Below are positions 1-18,044 of a DNA stretch of 18,422 bases, piece after piece. The notes beneath the pieces were generated by a model that had not been told where the DNA came from, searched no databases, and saw nothing but the letters and a program-made list of their open reading frames with translations. The DNA comes from JBGPLH01 sp041486365 [NCBI: Thermodesulfobacteriota bacterium] (GTDB lineage: Bacteria > JAUYMQ01): positions 1 through 18,422 of the forward strand of contig JBGPLH010000023.1 of assembly GCA_041486365.1 (NCBI GenBank). Reading direction: 5' to 3'. Numbering within the stretch: position 1 is the stretch's first letter; the number at the start of each line of letters is the position of its first letter. The position numbers were made by a program, and so were the translations under genes.

Positions 1-1164
1 ATCCCGGGCCACGTTGTCCCGGATCGTCACGTGCGCCGAGTACCAGATCACGAGATCGCTCGTGCGCACCATGACGTTGCGCTCGATCAGCGTGTTCGCG
101 CTCCCCCAGAGCTTGATCCCGTCGGCCCGCCGCATGAGCGGCAGATCCTTCCCGACGATCCGGTTGCCCCGCAGGACACTGTCCGGGGCGCCCCGCAGGC
201 TGATCCCGAAGAGGACGTCCTCGAGGTCGTTCCGCTCGATCCGGGTCCGGGGCGCGAAGGCGACGATGCCGCAGTCCTCCACGTCCGGCACGATGCCGCT
301 CCCGCGAATCCGCAGGTCCCTCACCGTCGTGTCCGGGGCCATCACCCGGAGCACGCAACCGCGCCCGCCACCGTCGAGGATGGCGCTCCCCGGCGGACCG
401 GCGGGCGCAAGCGTCACCGGGTGTTTTACCACGAACTGGCCGCGGTAGACCCCCGGCGGGATGCGCACCTCGCTTCCGGGCGGCGCGCGGTCGATAGCCC
501 CCTGGAGATCGAAGGCATGGGCGACGGAAGCGCTGAAGAGCAGCGCGGCCGCCAGGAGAACGCCGGCCACCGCCGCCGCGGAGGAGACCACGGCGCGCGG
601 GGCGGCCTGTGCGGCGGGCTCGCGCCGTCGCATCGCAAGCCCGATCAGACTCAGGACGCTCCCCGCCGTGCAGATGGCGAATCCTGCCTGGACCATCGCA
701 TAGACGCTGAACTGCCCCACGTGGCTCCAGAAGAAGACGAACGGCGTGAAGGGCGGGACGCTTCGATTGAGCGGCGCGTGGGGGTCCAGGCTGTTCCCGA
801 AGTACCAGAGCCAGAAGGAGACGTCGGCCAGGAAAATCAGCGGGAAGCTGATCGGCACGAGAAGCGCCCAGTTCAGCCACTTCTTCCGGGTGAAGGCCGC
901 GGCGAGCGCGATCAGGGTGAAGGCGACCATCCCCCAGGGGGCAATCGCCAGCTCGACGATCGCGGCCTCCTGGAGCGGGCGCATCCCGATGTAGTGGTTG
1001 AGCCCGTTTACTTCCCTGACGTCACCGCCGAGGCCGAAGACGCCCACCCACACCCGGAGATGCTCCGGGTACTGCGGCGCGAAGAGCGTCAGCTTCCAGA
1101 AGGGAAGGAAGGCGGCGGCCACGAAGCAGGCCGCCGCCACCACGAAGATCGCCCTAGCGCGCAT
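1..1164 (-). CDS. nosD: NosD-type periplasmic beta-helix protein with N-terminal membrane domain (3' end outside window)
   Basis: I translated this minus-strand frame by hand; it is open for 388 codons and leaves the window without a stop. Residues 1-215 form a membrane module with about five hydrophobic segments (near 5-23, 78-93, 97-118, 150-178 and 191-213) and the motif GLNHYIGM near residue 54. From about residue 218 the protein becomes a right-handed beta-helix of the NosD/CASH type, with typical strings such as IPPGVYRGQFVV, GNRIVGKDLP and RADGIKLW. NosD serves copper-site maturation of nitrous oxide reductase together with the NosFY ABC transporter. The small membrane domain resembles proteins encoded next to nosD in clade II nos clusters, from memory. 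Its ATG lies inside the last codons of nosZ (11-base overlap), so the two are co-transcribed. The last hydrophobic segment may act as the export signal of the beta-helix. The NosD assignment is firm; the role of the membrane domain is not. Confidence 0.88.
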   Translation of the reverse strand, partial: MRARAIFVVAAACFVAAAFLPFWKLTLFAPQYPEHLRVWVGVFGLGGDVREVNGLNHYIGMRPLQEAAIVELAIAPWGMVAFTLIALAAAFTRKKWLNWALLVPISFPLIFLADVSFWLWYFGNSLDPHAPLNRSVPPFTPFVFFWSHVGQFSVYAMVQAGFAICTAGSVLSLIGLAMRRREPAAQAAPRAVVSSAAAVAGVLLAAALLFSASVAHAFDLQGAIDRAPPGSEVRIPPGVYRGQFVVKHPVTLAPAGPPGSAILDGGGRGCVLRVMAPDTTVRDLRIRGSGIVPDVEDCGIVAFAPRTRIERNDLEDVLFGISLRGAPDSVLRGNRIVGKDLPLMRRADGIKLWGSANTLIERNVMVRTSDLVIWYSAHVTIRDNVARD

Positions 1165-3340
1165 CGCTGCCCACCGCCCGAGCTTCCTTGTCAGAGTCGG
1201 CTCCCGCTCCGCGGGAGACCTCCGGCTCATGCTCCCCTTCGCCCGGCTTCGCGTTCAGAGTCGGCTCCCGCTTCGCGGGAGACCTCCGGCCGCTCTTCGC
1301 GGGAGCGCCTTCCTCGTCGATGACGCCCGGCGGGGCCACCATCAGGTATCCGGCCATCTCCAGGTGCAGCGCCGAGCAGAACTCGGTGCAGTACCAGGTG
1401 AAGATTCCGTCGTGGTTCGCCGTGAACTCGAACGTGTTGGTCTCCCCCGGCTCGATCGACAGGGTGATGTTGTAATCGGGTACCGCGAACCCGTGCGTGG
1501 CGTCCTGCGCCCGCTCCAGATTCGTGATGTGCCACACCACGTGATCGCCCTTGCGGATGCGCACGTGCTCGGGGTTGTAGTGGCTGCGCACCGCGGTCAT
1601 GAAAACCTCGACGTTGTTCCCCTGTCGCACGACCTTCTCGTCGCCTGCCTTTGGCGCCTTCGGGTCCACCGCCTGGATCTCCGGATCCCAGCCGACCTCC
1701 GGGTACACCTTCCAGGGCTTCAGCTTGTCGGCCTTGATCATCTGGGCGTAGTGCGGCTCGCCCTCGCCGACCGCCATGTCGTACAGCACCTTCATCGGCT
1801 TGTCCGGGTTCGCGATGTCGACGAGCTGCAGGTTCTGGGGGAGCAGCGGTCCCGGTGGGAAGAAGCGGTCCACGGACCACTTGTTGAGAGCGACCAGGTA
1901 CTTCCCGTCCGGGCTCACCGTGTCGCCCTCGGCCGCCGAGATGTGGCCCACGTTGTACTGCACGGGAACCTTGTCGACGAGCTTCCAGCCGTCCTTGTGG
2001 TAGGGCGGGCCGAGCTTCCAGCGCGCCACCGCAGAGTCGAGGAAGAGGCTCGTGTAGGCGTAGCCCTTGTCGTCGAACTGGGTATGGAGCGGACCCAGCC
2101 CGAGCTCCACCTGCGCCTCCTTCACGGCGTCGAAGTTGAGCACGGGGACCCCGAAGTTCTCGTCCGGCGTCCAGTTCTTCGCCGCGATGGCGTCCTGCAC
2201 CTTCTTGAAGCTATACACCGTCGCCTGCGGATCGAGCTTCCCCGAGACGATCATGTACTCGCCCCCCGGAGTCACGTCCACGCCGTGGGGGCTCTTGGGC
2301 TCGGCCGCGTAGAAGAGCAACCCCTCGGCGATCGAGGTCTTCAGCGGAATGACCGGGAAGCCGTTGATCTGGACCGTCTTGCCCGCCTTGAACACCTCCT
2401 CCGCCTTCCTGAGGTTGATGATGTGCAGGTAGTCGGTATCGCGCTGGCTGGCGCCCGCCTCGAGCGGCGGCTTGCCTTCCTCGATGCCTCCCGTGGCCAT
2501 CTCGGTGTTGAAGGAGTTGCAGAAGACCCAGCCCTCACTCACCTTCTTGCCGGCGTCGCACAGATCCTGCCCGTAGGGCGGCAGCTCGAGGGAGAAAGAT
2601 CGGGTCTTGTCGATCCGCCCCTTCTCACGGTCGAACTTCCAGAACGTGATATGGCCGCGGTACTTCTCCTTGAACTGGGAAAGCGGCGCGTACTCGCCCC
2701 CGAGCGGCTGCGCGTACTGGCCGCCCTCGGCGATGTACTCGGTGTTGGGCGTCACGAAGGTGCCGCCGTGATCCGAGGTGGCGATGGGGTTCTTCACGAT
2801 CTGCTTCGTCTCGAAGTCGCGGAGATCGATCACGGCGACGCGGCTCTGGGCCTTGTCGTTGATGAAGAGGAACTGGCCATCGTAATCGCCGCCGGTCTCG
2901 GAGAGCGCCGGATGGTGCGTGTCGGCCCAGGCCAGACCCTTGGCGTCGCCTGCTCCTTCCGCGAGCACCTTCATCGTCCCCCTCGCCCCGTAGCCGTAAC
3001 CCTGCCAGGGCTCCGGCGTGAAGACGGCGATGGATCGGAGGAGCCGCATGGAGGGGACCCCGATCGCGAAGACCTGGCCCGCGTGCCCTCCGGATGCGAA
3101 CATGATGTAATCATCGTGGCGGCCGCTCGGCATATAGGTCTTCATCGCCGCGACCACGTCGTCCGGAGAGAGCTTCCGCTCCGAGACCACCTGGTTCGCC
3201 TCGGCGGACATCCCCGCCACCTCCGCCACCGTCTGCTTGGTGGACGTGGGCTTCGGAGGCTCGCAGGCGGTGGTCGTGAGCGCGATCGCACCAAGCGCGA
3301 CGAGGCCTGCCATGAACATTCGTGACCCGAATGTGCGCAT
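1154..3340 (-). CDS. nosZ: Nitrous oxide reductase, clade II (Sec/lipoprotein type)
   Basis: Reduces N2O to N2 in the periplasm, the last step of denitrification. Of 728 residues, the first 25 form a hydrophobic signal without a twin arginine, ending at C26 in LTTTAC. This is an imperfect lipobox, so a Sec-exported, possibly lipid-anchored enzyme as in clade II NosZ. A beta-propeller follows with CuZ-type histidines (DTHHP, SDHGG, PLHTQF, EPHY). The C-terminal cupredoxin domain carries the CuA ligands C651, C655, H659 and M662 in WYCTEFCSALHLEM. I chose the start at 3340 because AGGAG stands 8 bases upstream; a start 39 bases earlier would add a charged stretch before the signal. The natural end should be near residue 670. 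About 60 further Pro/Glu/Arg-rich residues are encoded partly by two palindromic repeats. The next gene overlaps its stop by 11 bases. Confidence 0.97.
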   Translation of the reverse strand: MRTFGSRMFMAGLVALGAIALTTTACEPPKPTSTKQTVAEVAGMSAEANQVVSERKLSPDDVVAAMKTYMPSGRHDDYIMFASGGHAGQVFAIGVPSMRLLRSIAVFTPEPWQGYGYGARGTMKVLAEGAGDAKGLAWADTHHPALSETGGDYDGQFLFINDKAQSRVAVIDLRDFETKQIVKNPIATSDHGGTFVTPNTEYIAEGGQYAQPLGGEYAPLSQFKEKYRGHITFWKFDREKGRIDKTRSFSLELPPYGQDLCDAGKKVSEGWVFCNSFNTEMATGGIEEGKPPLEAGASQRDTDYLHIINLRKAEEVFKAGKTVQINGFPVIPLKTSIAEGLLFYAAEPKSPHGVDVTPGGEYMIVSGKLDPQATVYSFKKVQDAIAAKNWTPDENFGVPVLNFDAVKEAQVELGLGPLHTQFDDKGYAYTSLFLDSAVARWKLGPPYHKDGWKLVDKVPVQYNVGHISAAEGDTVSPDGKYLVALNKWSVDRFFPPGPLLPQNLQLVDIANPDKPMKVLYDMAVGEGEPHYAQMIKADKLKPWKVYPEVGWDPEIQAVDPKAPKAGDEKVVRQGNNVEVFMTAVRSHYNPEHVRIRKGDHVVWHITNLERAQDATHGFAVPDYNITLSIEPGETNTFEFTANHDGIFTWYCTEFCSALHLEMAGYLMVAPPGVIDEEGAPAKSGRRSPAKREPTLNAKPGEGEHEPEVSRGAGADSDKEARAVGSDAR
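1191..1226. repeat. 36-bp palindromic repeat, copy 1, inside the 3' end of nosZ
   Basis: Begins TCAGAGTCGG and ends ACCTCCGGC. The core is a perfect 7-bp hairpin, CTCCCGC at 1201-1207 and GCGGGAG at 1211-1217, with a TCC loop. It differs from the copy at 1255-1290 at a single base, in the loop. The two copies start 64 bases apart, not a multiple of three, so nosZ reads them in different frames (this copy as EVSRGAGADSD). No transposase lies nearby. It looks like a REP or small palindromic mobile element. Confidence 0.85.
1255..1290. repeat. 36-bp palindromic repeat, copy 2, inside the 3' end of nosZ
   Basis: Second copy of the element at 1191-1226, in the same orientation. The hairpin is CTCCCGC at 1265-1271 and GCGGGAG at 1275-1281 with a TTC loop. 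nosZ reads it as GRRSPAKREPTLN. Just beyond it, around 1291-1307, a shorter related string (CTCTTCGCGGGAG) may be a third, decayed partial copy. Confidence 0.85.
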
Positions 3341-6936: not shown

Positions 6937-7035
6937 TCTGGGTCCACCCCCGTGTTTCCTTCCGAAGCTCTTGCGATCGGGCGACAGGCACGCGCCCGGA
7001 TCTTCGCCCCCGCACGCCAGGAAAGGAAAGCACGC

Positions 7036-7935
7036 ATGATCACCGATCGCGACATGATCGAAGCCCGCGACGACCGCCGCCACCAGCCCGCCGTGGACGC
7101 CATGCCCCTGTGGAACGAGAGCTACTGGTTTTCCTTCCACGATCCCGCCGCGCGGATCGGCGTGGTGACGCGCATCGGGATGCTGCCGAACCGGAACGAG
7201 GCGAATGTCTGGTTCTACATCTCGAAGGACGGGAAGATCGCCCACACGGGCAACGATCTGCGCTGCGCGGTCCCCGGCGGGGACATCGATGAGCTTTCGC
7301 TCGGGGACGTGACGTTTCGCTGCACCGAGCCGCTCCGGAACTTTCGGCTGACCTACGCGGGATCGGGCGCCTCCATGGACGTCACGTGGAGCGGCGCCCA
7401 TCCCGTGTTCCAGTACCCCGTTCCGCCCGGATCGACCGAGTCGCAGTTCCCCCGACACATCGAGCAGGGCGGGCGCGCGCGGGGCACGGTCACGGTCGGC
7501 GGCAGCGCCCGCGCCATCGATACCGTCGGGCACCGTGATCATTCCTGGGGAGGGGAGCGCGACTGGACGCGGCTGGAGACGTGGCACTACATCTCGGGGG
7601 ACTTCGGGGACTTCTCCTTCAACGTGGTGCGCGTGATGATGGGCGGGGGCGAATTCAGCGCGGGTTACGTCTGGGACGGGAGGGAGATCATGAGCGTCAC
7701 GGACATCCGCACGGAGGTCGCGACCGACGCGTCCGGCCGCCGGCAGACGGCCGCGACGATCGCCTTTCTCGACGAGCGGGAGCGCGCGCACGCGATCTCG
7801 GCGCGGGTGATCGACGTCTGCGAGGTGGACCTGGGCGGGACCCGCTGCAACGACGGCTTCGCCGAATTCCGGATGGGGGAGAGAACGGGCCAGGGGATCG
7901 TGGAACTGGGGACCCAGGATGGGGGTCAGGCTTGA
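7036..7935 (+). CDS. DUF7064/CrtC-AttH-like (lipocalin-like fold) protein
   Basis: A protein of 299 residues without signal peptide or membrane segment. Near residue 165 it has GHRDHSWGGERDW, the hallmark I know from DUF7064-type proteins distantly related to the hydroxyneurosporene synthase/AttH fold. No activity can be assigned. Relatives often occur beside acyl-CoA and APH-type kinase genes, which matches the genes facing it here. I chose the start at 7036 because the purine-rich AGGAAAGGAAAG lies five bases upstream; a longer frame from 6952 has no such signal. Its last codons and stop lie inside a REP-like repeat (7922-7949), so the final residues (DGGQA) may result from repeat insertion. 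Confidence 0.75.
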   Translation: MITDRDMIEARDDRRHQPAVDAMPLWNESYWFSFHDPAARIGVVTRIGMLPNRNEANVWFYISKDGKIAHTGNDLRCAVPGGDIDELSLGDVTFRCTEPLRNFRLTYAGSGASMDVTWSGAHPVFQYPVPPGSTESQFPRHIEQGGRARGTVTVGGSARAIDTVGHRDHSWGGERDWTRLETWHYISGDFGDFSFNVVRVMMGGGEFSAGYVWDGREIMSVTDIRTEVATDASGRRQTAATIAFLDERERAHAISARVIDVCEVDLGGTRCNDGFAEFRMGERTGQGIVELGTQDGGQA

Positions 7936-7949
7936 CTTATTGACTTTTG
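7922..7949 (-). repeat. REP-like repeat, left arm of an inverted pair
   Basis: Begins GGGGTCAGGCTTGAC and continues TTATTGACTTTT. It is the near reverse complement of 8015-8041: 15 bases match perfectly, then TGACTT is shared. It overlaps the 3' end of the DUF7064-like gene, whose stop TGA is at 7933-7935. Confidence 0.8.
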
Positions 7950-8014
7950 CAGAGTGTTCTTAGCCAACGGGCAACCTTGATGATGGGCCGAGAACGGGCG
8001 GGCGCCGGAAGCCA

Positions 8015-8041
8015 TAAGTCAAAACGTCAAGCCTGACCCCA
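8015..8041 (+). repeat. REP-like repeat, right arm of an inverted pair
   Basis: Begins TAAGTCAAAACGTC and ends AAGCCTGACCCCA. It pairs with 7922-7949 around a spacer of about 65 bases and fills the convergent gap up to the stop of the minus-strand gene at 8047. The pair could form a long stem and block transcription in both directions. Its first half resembles the tandem repeats at 10819-10895. Confidence 0.8.
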
Positions 8042-10818: not shown

Positions 10819-10848
10819 TTAAGTCAACAAGTCGTGCCTGGCACCGAA
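10819..10848 (+). repeat. REP-like repeat, tandem copy 1
   Basis: TTAAGTCAACAAGTC followed by GTGCCTGGCACCGAA. The second half holds the perfect small palindrome GTGCC-T-GGCAC. It is one of two direct copies 47 bases apart in the gap between the thiolase and nitroreductase genes. Such elements are usually spread by REP-associated tyrosine (RAYT) transposases; none is in the window. Confidence 0.85.
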
Positions 10849-10865
10849 TCCCCGAATCCCGCCCA

Positions 10866-10895
10866 TTAAGTCAACAAGTCATGCCTGGCACCGAA
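10866..10895 (+). repeat. REP-like repeat, tandem copy 2
   Basis: Same 30-base element as at 10819-10848 with one change (GTCATGCC instead of GTCGTGCC), which breaks the outermost pair of the palindrome. It ends 16 bases from the thiolase stop. The gap 10757-10911 holds nothing else recognisable. Confidence 0.85.
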
Positions 10896-10911
10896 GCGCC
10901 GATTCCCATCC

Positions 10912-15176: not shown

Positions 15177-18044
15177 CTAGATCTTCTCGACCTCGATGCG
15201 CGTCCCGCGGTCGTTCTGTCCGGGCTGGTGGCTGATCACCATCGGCGCCAGGTGGAAGTAGCCCCCGGCGAGCTGGATCGGGTTGATGGGGCTCGGGATC
15301 GCGACCTGGTGGGAACGGCGCCCGGGGAACTGATGGGGCTCCCAGCCGTGGTACATGATCACCTGCCCCGGGCGCACGGCGGGTGACACCTTCGCCTGGA
15401 GCTCGAACTGCCCCAGGTCGTTCCGGGCGCGGATCCGCTCGCCGTCCGCGATCCCCCGCGCCTGCGCGTCCTTCGGGCTCATGTAGAGGATCGGCCCGCC
15501 CCGCTGAAGGCGCAGCATGAGCGCGTTGTCCCGCCAGGACGAATGGATCGACCAGCGCGTGTGGCCACCCGTCATGTGGAGCGGGTAGTCACCGCCGATC
15601 GCAGGGTTGTCCTTGTGCGTCGGCAGCACCTCGCCGAGCTCCTCGAACAGCTCGTGATCGACGTAGAACTGCATGCGCCGTGTGAGCGTGGGCCAGGGGA
15701 TCTTCCTGTCGGTGTGCCAGGTGTTCGCCGTGATCGTGTCGTCGGGTTTCACATCCGTCGCGGTGCCTATGTTCGTCCCGGTCTTCCCCACCGCGGTGAA
15801 TCGCGCGTAGCCCTTCTTCTTCAGGTCCTCCCAGCTCACCCCCGTGAGGTTGCTCGACAGCCTCGTCAACGCGTCGAGCACCTTCTCGATGTCCTTCTCC
15901 GTGTAACGGCCGTGGTAAGTGAAGTCGTCGTAGGCCTTGTCGAGCCTCCGTTCCTTCCCGGCCCGATCCCGGTAGGTGGTCACCCCGAGCGCCTTCGCCC
16001 GCTCCTGGATCTTCTTCATCAGCAGGCAGTGGAACTCCCACTCGTGCCGGGACTCGGCCAGCGGCGCGACCGCCCGCGTGGTCACGTGGGCGTAGGGCGC
16101 GATCGGCGTGCCCCAGGAGATGTCGTTCTTCTCGTACCAGCCGGCAGCGGGGAGCACGAAGTCGCTGTGCATCCCCGTCGTGCTCATCCGCCAGTCGACG
16201 GTGACGAGGAGATCGAGCTTCGGCACGAAGTGCTTGATGAGCTGCTGGTACCCGCGGACGCGGCGCAGGATGTTTCCGCCTTCCTCGATGAAGATCCGCG
16301 GCGGCGTCTTCGCTTCGTACTGCCAGCCCTTCGCGTAGGCCTCCCTCACGTAGGACTCCACATCGCGCCGGAGGTGCGGATCCCAGTCCTTCGAGCGCCC
16401 GCTCGTCTCCTTGAGGCCGCCGTGCTCGTAGAAGAAGAGCACCGAATTGGTGAAAGCGCCCTTTGCGAAGATGTCGCGGGTGTCCATGTAGGTGATCATC
16501 TCATCGGAGTAGCCCTGGATCTTGCGCTTGGCGATGGAGGGCGCGTAGCCCGCCATGACGGCGAGCGCCCCGAGGTTCATCGGGAGCGACGGGGGCGAGA
16601 GCGCCGCGATCTCCGGCGAGTCGATGCTCATCCAGGGGAACGCGTTGAAGCCGCTCCCCTTCTTCCCGTAGTGCCCGCAGAGGGCGAGGACGAGCATCTG
16701 CGCCCGCTCCATCTCGGCCCCGTGGTAGAACTTCGAGAAGTTCGACTGGGTGAGGATCGTGGCGGCCTTCGCCCTTCCGATGTCGCGCGCGAGGGCGCGC
16801 ACGAGGACCGGCGACACCCCGGTGATCTTCCGGGTCTCCTCCGGGCTGAAACCGGACACCTTTTCGCGCAGCAGCGTGAACGCCGGCGTGACCTTCACCG
16901 TCCCCTCAAGGGTTTTCGCGTCGTACTCCCCGTCCAGCTCCGGCACGATCCGGCCGAGCTTCAGGCTTCGCTTCGGCGCCTCCCGGATCCGCCGCGCGGC
17001 CCTGTCCCAGACGTAGAACACGTCGTCCTTGCCCCCGCGCACGCAATCGCTCTCGCGCAGGAACTTCCCGTTGTCGCGCCGCACGAGTAGCGGCTGGTCC
17101 GTCTGCTCCCGCAGGAAGGCCTCGTCGTGCAGCTTCTCCTCGAGAATGACGTTCGCGATGGACAGGCCGAGCGCCGCGTCGCTGCCCACCTTCACCGGCA
17201 CCCAGAGGTCGGCGTGCAGGGCCGAGGGGTTGTAGTCCGGGGCGATCGTCACGACCTTCGCCCCGTGGTAGCGCGCCTCGTTGAAGAAGTGGGCGTTGGG
17301 GATCTGGGTGTAGACCGGGTTGCCGCCCCAGATGAGGATCATGTCCGAGAAGAAGCAGTCGTCGCCGGAACTCGCGAAGACGATCTTCCCGGTGGTGATC
17401 GCGGCGCCGGGATGGTGGTCGCCGATCTCGGAGTTCATGTCGAGGATAGGCGTGTCGAGAATGGCCCCCGTGCGCAGGAGCCCGAGCCCGTGACAACCGT
17501 TGGTGAGCGCCGTGCCGAGGTCCCAGTAGAAGGCGCCGGGGCCGGACGTCCTGAGTACCTCGACGGCCTTGTCGGCGATCTCGGTGAGCGCCTCGTCCCA
17601 GGTCACGCGCTTCCACTTCCCCGCGCCGCGGGGCCCGACGCGTTTCAGCGGGTACTTGAGCCGCGTGGGGTCGTACATGCGGTGGCTGTAGCAGGCGCCC
17701 TTCTGGCAACCGCGCGGATTGTAATCGGGGACGTCGGGCCGGATGGATTCATAGGTCGCCGCCTGCTCCTCCCGGAGCACCATGCCGTCCTTCACGTACA
17801 CGTTCCAGGCGCAGGCGCGCTGGTACCAGCAGTTGACGTAGTGGGTCCCCTTCGCGATCCGATCCCAGGTCCACTTCTTCCGCGTGAGGTCTTCGAAACC
17901 GCCGTAGCGGGGGGCCGGCGCCATCCCCGCGGGAGCGGCCGCCCAGGCCTCGGGGAGCGACGATCGGAGACGGCTCAGGCACAGCGCGGCGGTGGCGGCG
18001 CCGGTCCCCTTCAGGAAGTCGCGTCGGCTGAATGATCGCGCCAT
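15177..18044 (-). CDS. Tat-exported DMSO-reductase-family molybdoenzyme, type II catalytic subunit
   Basis: 955 residues. A Tat signal (SRRDFLKG, residues 6-13, hydrophobic core, AWA near 33-35) predicts folded export to the periplasm. The N-terminal [4Fe-4S] site reads H68-x3-C72-x5-C78-x34-C113; the histidine is typical of type II enzymes such as ethylbenzene, dimethylsulfide or steroid C25 dehydrogenase and selenate reductase. MNSEIGDHHPG near 203-213 probably supplies the molybdenum aspartate (D209). The C-terminal molybdopterin-dinucleotide domain (MTGGHTRWSIHSSW; ARGIADGERIRARNDLG) is complete. The substrate is unknown. GAGGGG precedes the ATG. It lies 15 bases after hemY, and a terminator follows at once, so no beta (iron-sulfur), gamma (heme) or chaperone gene is linked downstream. 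Overall family is certain; the type II call is likely. Confidence 0.9.
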   Translation of the reverse strand: MARSFSRRDFLKGTGAATAALCLSRLRSSLPEAWAAAPAGMAPAPRYGGFEDLTRKKWTWDRIAKGTHYVNCWYQRACAWNVYVKDGMVLREEQAATYESIRPDVPDYNPRGCQKGACYSHRMYDPTRLKYPLKRVGPRGAGKWKRVTWDEALTEIADKAVEVLRTSGPGAFYWDLGTALTNGCHGLGLLRTGAILDTPILDMNSEIGDHHPGAAITTGKIVFASSGDDCFFSDMILIWGGNPVYTQIPNAHFFNEARYHGAKVVTIAPDYNPSALHADLWVPVKVGSDAALGLSIANVILEEKLHDEAFLREQTDQPLLVRRDNGKFLRESDCVRGGKDDVFYVWDRAARRIREAPKRSLKLGRIVPELDGEYDAKTLEGTVKVTPAFTLLREKVSGFSPEETRKITGVSPVLVRALARDIGRAKAATILTQSNFSKFYHGAEMERAQMLVLALCGHYGKKGSGFNAFPWMSIDSPEIAALSPPSLPMNLGALAVMAGYAPSIAKRKIQGYSDEMITYMDTRDIFAKGAFTNSVLFFYEHGGLKETSGRSKDWDPHLRRDVESYVREAYAKGWQYEAKTPPRIFIEEGGNILRRVRGYQQLIKHFVPKLDLLVTVDWRMSTTGMHSDFVLPAAGWYEKNDISWGTPIAPYAHVTTRAVAPLAESRHEWEFHCLLMKKIQERAKALGVTTYRDRAGKERRLDKAYDDFTYHGRYTEKDIEKVLDALTRLSSNLTGVSWEDLKKKGYARFTAVGKTGTNIGTATDVKPDDTITANTWHTDRKIPWPTLTRRMQFYVDHELFEELGEVLPTHKDNPAIGGDYPLHMTGGHTRWSIHSSWRDNALMLRLQRGGPILYMSPKDAQARGIADGERIRARNDLGQFELQAKVSPAVRPGQVIMYHGWEPHQFPGRRSHQVAIPSPINPIQLAGGYFHLAPMVISHQPGQNDRGTRIEVEKI

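Follow-up and report, generated by a model that had tools for sequence, protein, structure and literature searches.

Nitrous oxide reductase (NosZ) destroys nitrous oxide, a greenhouse gas. In operons of the maltose type, a hairpin after the first gene blocks 3′–5′ exonucleases and thereby preserves the mRNA of that gene. According to the cited part of a study in E. coli, such hairpins, which are without a uridine tract, are present after 26 of 34 stabilised 5′ genes, and 17 of these 26 are located inside the downstream coding sequence (PMC5927463). Palindromic repeats of other kinds have also been described. REP sequences, in the excerpted account used here, are short palindromic repeats of 14–40 nt in E. 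coli that are usually extragenic (PMC12306157), and in the Rickettsia palindromic elements and other protein-coding MITEs a palindromic repeat is read as protein in an ordinary enzyme, as stated in the section cited (PMC10969869).

Here we study a repeated hairpin at the 3′ end of a nosZ gene in a window of 18,422 nt, which is the whole stretch of DNA that was analysed. The locus shares with the malE–malF type a junction hairpin that separates a first gene, presumably expressed at a high level, from accessory genes, again without a U-tract, and it differs in that the hairpin is also located in the upstream gene's own frame and in that its stability is at the level of shuffled sequence. With REP sequences the repeat shares its size (36 bp), a palindromic stem-loop, near-identical copies and a position at a gene end, but its copies are not extragenic, since both are in the nosZ frame and copy 1 is in addition in the nosB frame from an ATG at 1230. 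REP sequences have many copies per genome; of the present repeat, the 18.4-kb window contains two. The initial annotation of this DNA had likened it to the Rickettsia elements, and the likeness holds in so far as a palindromic repeat is read as protein. Rickettsia elements give a conserved peptide in unrelated genes by in-frame insertion; here the peptide RRSPA[K/E]REPTL is part of the NosZ tail and would also be part of the leader of NosB if translation began at ATG 1230. It is loose in other respects, because the Rickettsia elements are ∼150 bp long compared with 36 bp here, and the window repeat is read in two frames of one ORF, at one operon junction only and with no third copy found. A Rickettsia-type protein-coding insertion is not established, and a reading in which the repeat occupies a hairpin slot of the operon is better supported.

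The repeat and the NosZ tail

The window carries a clade II (Sec-type) nosZ on the minus strand at 1154–3325 (TIGR04246, 854.4 bits against a cut-off of 625). Its length of 723 codons is counted from 3325, where the start codon is provisional, as the ORF has no stop up to 3379. The core columns expected to hold the Cu ligand residues are invariant when 30 NosZ sequences are aligned. The conserved end of the protein, YLMVAP, is reached at residue 665 of 723, and the frame then remains open to a TAG at 1156–1154, leaving a C-terminal extension of 58 codons plus the stop (1154–1330, minus strand) in which both repeat copies are located. The initial annotation had put the addition at about 60 residues, close to the 58 measured.

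The two copies form a direct repeat of 36 bp with 35/36 identical positions and are located, on the minus strand and in the nosZ frame, at 1191–1226 (copy 1, the downstream one on the transcript, with its hairpin core at 1201–1217) and 1255–1290 (copy 2, the upstream one, with its core at 1265–1281), 64 bp apart from start to start. Each forms a hairpin with a perfect 7-bp stem and a 3-nt loop, and the sole mismatch between them (1209 versus 1273) falls on the central base of the triloop. In the NosZ frame copy 2 encodes RRSPAKREPTL and copy 1 encodes PEVSRGAGADS, and copy 1 in the NosB frame gives RRSPAEREPTL. Two hairpin copies that differ at one base inside nosZ, and that are read in two frames without stopping, are therefore present as first described. 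The absence of a stop from either copy is unsurprising, because, of the three frames in which the 36-mer can be read in the sense direction, two have no stop and the third has a TGA at the 3′ end.

A 28-base core pattern, allowing up to 3 mismatches, matched the 18.4-kb window at the two copies only, without a third, and two matches were reached in 0 of 200 dinucleotide shuffles. Perfect 7-bp/3-nt hairpins occur seven times in the window, two of them being the repeat copies and five others lying elsewhere. It is the repetition, not the palindromicity, that exceeds chance. An 11-bp remnant of the core at 1295–1305 (minus-strand feature, CTTCGCGGGAG on the plus strand) is a possible third partial copy, which could be due to chance. 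The hairpin folds as a 38-nt RNA at −15.8 kcal/mol, the stability of single copies as DNA is weak (z from −1.0 to −1.8), no T-run is located 3′ of either copy on the transcript strand, and Rfam gave no match in the window at the gathering score.

Among its nearest relatives the NosZ tail is unusual, because in the 66 readable of 75 loci the protein ends −1 to 10 residues past the conserved VxP (the counts of tails and hairpins omit eight loci without a recognisable CuA-end motif, L022, L059, L061, L062, L063, L066, L071 and L072, and also L038, whose frame runs off its contig). In the phylum of locus L060, tails of 22–124 residues are present in 15 of 27 readable loci, and across NosZ as a whole a long tail is not exceptional. 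The earlier statement that the copies lie past the usual NosZ end is thus right for close relatives and does not extend to that phylum. The extensions there share with the present one their C-terminal position, and some are proline/alanine-rich and repetitive, but they have other sequences, and an unsystematic look noticed no DNA hairpin repeat in them. Similar extensions of 120–124 residues after the CuA domain were seen in L111, L112, L114–L118, L125, L130 and L140, where they may be a folded accessory domain.

An AlphaFold model built with the 30 aligned sequences folds the NosZ core well and gives residues 671–721 a pLDDT below 50, with values of 30–37 in the tail, where the lack of aligned relatives by itself lowers model confidence. 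The tail is predicted from this model to be disordered, in agreement with one of the possibilities raised at the outset. We read it as a passenger, a by-product, and a floppy tail of 58 residues is probably harmless.

The nosZ–nosB junction

Downstream of nosZ on the minus strand, nosB, which encodes a membrane protein, and nosD are read as one ORF (1–1230) that is cut by the window edge. TIGR04247 scores 133 bits on this cut-off protein, below its cut-off of 300. Most of the fetched loci likewise have homologues of nosB and nosD downstream of nosZ, and among the loci whose gene order was examined a fusion like the single ORF of the window was seen only in L026, L060 having been flagged owing to its different gene order. 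As read from the sequence, the ORF might encode one protein.

The distance from the conserved NosZ end to the ATG at 1164 is 166 nt in the window and 50–309 nt in relatives with nosB directly downstream. Because 166 nt falls inside this range, the copies fill an ordinary nosZ–nosB junction, and a lengthening by insertion is not shown; the initial annotation's proposal of an insertion absorbed into the enzyme is thus not upheld. Along the transcript the conserved NosZ end is followed by 49 nt, the copy 2 hairpin, ∼34 nt, an SD-like sequence and ATG 1230, and after ATG 1230 comes an imperfect repeat of this unit with the copy 1 hairpin, ∼36 nt and ATG 1164. The repeated unit is ∼65–72 bp long, and each time it opens with a copy and closes with a possible nosB start. 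Alignment of the units on the minus strand places unit A, with copy 2, a spacer containing the SD-like AAGGGGAG and ATG 1230, at 1226–1290, and unit B, with copy 1, a spacer and ATG 1164, at 1155–1226. The spacer halves of the two units are also alike (P = 0.005 against letter shuffles and 0.0022 against random window segments, in a post hoc test), and their anti-SD duplex energies hardly differ (−7.9 kcal/mol for unit A and −7.1 kcal/mol for unit B).

Both ATG 1230 and ATG 1164 are in the NosB frame, and the nosZ frame closes 8 nt downstream of the ATG 1164 triplet (ATGCGCGCTAG), which gives an overlap of 11 nt. Translation from ATG 1230 would make copy 1 residues 4–14 of NosB, RRSPAEREPTL, which is the register in which NosZ reads copy 2. 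This start is favoured by the length of the NosB leader in relatives, an agreement that is partly by construction, because the rule took whichever Met lay closest to 24 residues upstream. Against it, scoring by codon composition gives 1230–1165 a value of 0.02 when read in the NosZ frame and a poorer one of −0.28 when read in the NosB frame. Copy 1 is in the NosZ frame, as had been annotated for the tail, but may equally be a NosB leader from ATG 1230. A position of copy 1 inside nosB from this start would fit the 17 of 26 E. coli hairpins that are located in downstream coding sequence.

Hairpins after nosZ in relatives

We fetched 75 nosZ loci, mostly from records titled as Chloroflexi-type bacteria, and for the 66 usable ones the first 100 nt past nosZ were folded and scored by z against dinucleotide shuffles. 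Values of z below −2 were obtained after nosZ in 50/66 loci, compared with 1/66 within nosZ coding sequence, 10/64 after nosB and 3/64 within nosB coding sequence. Perfect stems of at least 10 bp gave the same order after nosZ and within it (20/66 and 0/66), with 3/64 after nosB and 0/64 in nosB coding sequence. When ORFs were called roughly in these loci, z was below −2 for 32 of 39 nosZ spacers, compared with 38 of 114 for the remaining spacers between co-directional genes. The excess after nosZ over that after nosB was 31/45 versus 7/44 when NosZ sequences were clustered at 85% identity and 9/16 versus 2/16 at 75%.

In these relatives the hairpin starts at a median of 16.5 nt past the nosZ stop, and at least 5 T within the next 8 nt were found in just 3 of the 66 loci, so that the junction hairpins are not intrinsic terminators; this reading was rejected for the window as well, as a U-tract is missing after its copies.

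The hairpin sequences vary between lineages. A 17-mer of the hairpin arm had 101, 80 and 20 genome matches in L049, L053 and L065, respectively, and a 19-mer of the arm in L028 had 6, and in these four genomes a dispersed repeat thus occupies the slot. The arm of L002 is unique in its genome, and thus repeats do not always fill the slot. Four arms were tested, picked for long or repeated stems.

In two hold-out phyla the post-nosZ hairpin excess is weaker. The phylum of L026 (records titled Acidobacteriota) gave 9/22 after nosZ versus 4/22 in coding sequence, and the phylum of L060 (titled Deltaproteobacteria) gave 9/27 versus 2/27, with a pooled value of 18/49 versus 6/49 (Fisher one-sided P = 0.004). 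By the search used, nosB was directly after nosZ in only 9 of the 27 loci of the latter phylum. L087, L097 and L134 were excluded from the hold-out as repeats of genomes already used, and further loci were lost because they were short (L084, L102 and L119) or had no motif (L110 and L122).

The window lacks this stability signal of its relatives, because its spacer is at the level of shuffles (z = +0.05 over 167 nt and −0.53 over 100 nt) and its single copies are weak. At ∼70% GC, little can stand out in stability. Of two properties expected of a 3′ protective hairpin, the window copies show the absence of a U-tract but are not more stable than background, as the folds in 50 of 66 relatives are. 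The link from the slot of the relatives to the window therefore rests on position, on architecture (a hairpin, ∼25–35 nt and a nosB start) and on repetition, and not on stability.

Possible origins and role of the repeat

We tentatively favour, at a probability of roughly 0.45, the reading that a hairpin-bearing repeat in the nosZ–nosB junction of a clade II nos operon is translated for want of an earlier stop, as NosZ has no stop before the repeat. The junction hairpin of the relatives, being without a U-tract, could be a 3′ protective or processing element on the mRNA, through which the nosZ segment would outlast that of the accessory genes, as in malE–malF of E. coli. In the lineage of the window this slot would be occupied by a duplicated palindrome, and loss or downstream shift of the NosZ stop would have turned the hairpin slot into coding sequence, with nosZ–nosB coupling presumably kept through the 11-nt overlap. 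It counts against this mechanism that ribosomes finishing NosZ would traverse both hairpins. A role of the hairpin on nos mRNA is a reading of sequence and folding analyses, and it leads us to expect nosZ mRNA above nosB mRNA in clade II operons. In Nitrosophilus labii, according to the part of the report cited, nosZ levels are high and read coverage is low upstream of nosB, and nosB has a predicted start site of its own (PMC11539149); this separate start site counts against the slot reading. Among the listed titles and abstract openings, we found no published account of a hairpin after nosZ. It is doubtful, though conceivable, that in clade II nos operons the junction is a recurrent docking slot for lineage-specific palindromes, which would act as 3′ hairpins that adjust NosZ output against that of the accessory proteins; in the present lineage the slot would have moved across the NosZ stop, so that one palindrome serves at once as RNA element, NosZ tail and NosB leader.

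The repeat might instead be a dispersed palindromic element, REP-, MITE- or Rickettsia-element-like, that was inserted twice near the nosZ end and absorbed into the frame. This origin is possible but rather unlikely. The edge of similarity is sharp, with 35/36 bp followed by a far less similar spacer, and the one difference between the copies sits in the triloop. The window contains two further repeat families (7922–8040 and 10819–10907), and dispersed repeats fill the junction in some relatives. Yet no third copy was found in 18.4 kb, and the core was found in 0 of 12, 0 of 198, 0 of 5 and 0 of 237 genomes, some of which were searched twice, a weak test as none of them is known to be a close relative; a family dispersed within this lineage alone may therefore exist. 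Viral contigs, plasmids and the flanks of the 75 nosZ loci gave no match to the core, and a phage search with it returned one weak match (E = 0.3). As to relatedness, the thiolase ORF of the window reached a best identity of 59% among 30 genomes, the molybdopterin oxidoreductase did not exceed 58% among the 297 genomes searched from the L056 phylum and matched only weakly in 5 from the L001 phylum, and the best protein match to a plasmid-borne NosZ was 61.7%. The junction is, moreover, no longer than that of the relatives, and because the spacer halves are alike in addition to the copies, duplication of a longer unit is favoured over a dispersed element.

Such a duplication could have been functionless, a local tandem copying of a GC-rich stretch at the nosB start in which the hairpin is incidental and the frame open by chance. 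The similarity that reaches past the 36-mer to the ATG (post hoc, as given above), the five other hairpins of the same size that arose in the window by chance and a spacer no more stable than shuffles all agree with this. An open frame is plausible by chance too, because in DNA of 68% GC two of the three repeat frames have no stop. We nevertheless regard this explanation as rather unlikely: the divergence is uneven, with a hairpin half at 35/36 and an indel-rich spacer half, and the site coincides with the hairpin slot of the relatives. Far less probable is an assembly or sequencing error that makes the tail artefactual and hides a true, earlier NosZ end. The locus is on a single contig, hairpins are error-prone, and a stop in another frame would overlap ATG 1230 as ATGA, which is a common arrangement. 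However, downstream of the conserved NosZ end no stop interrupts the three frames for 24, 33 and 58 codons, respectively, so that a single frameshift there would shorten the tail and not abolish it. The hidden frameshift that the initial annotation had listed as a possible refutation would therefore still leave 24 or 33 extra codons. By codon score the NosZ frame also ranks first in each half of the tail, and its codon composition at 1330–1231 is above that of every off-frame control chunk, although only at the 5th percentile of true-frame chunks.

If the hairpin slot is real, a non-coding feature common to many clade II N2O reducers may set the amount of NosZ relative to the maturation and electron-transfer proteins, which bears on which organisms consume N2O in soils and sludge, and the window would be an example of an RNA hairpin slipping into protein. 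Should nothing beyond the local duplication hold up, the locus is a curiosity, a copper enzyme with a disordered tail derived from repeat DNA.

Of the two other repeat families in the window, one is a 28-bp inverted repeat (7922–7949 and 8013–8040, GGGGTCAGGCTTGAC...) with arms that are 89% complementary and 63 nt apart; its left arm overlaps the 3′ end of a DUF7064/DUF7065 ORF (6952–7935), so that it is again hairpin-forming and at a gene end. The other consists of 42-bp direct copies with 90% identity (10819–10860 and 10866–10907) that contain the palindrome GTGCCTGGCAC and are located upstream of an ORF of the nitroreductase family. The window further encodes, on the minus strand at 15177–18044, a type II DMSO-reductase-family catalytic subunit near ethylbenzene dehydrogenase, with a twin-arginine signal. 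It scores 937.6 bits with TIGR03479, just under the cut-off of 984.75, and is located close to ORFs for an acyl-CoA ligase, an acyl-CoA dehydrogenase-like protein and a thiolase.
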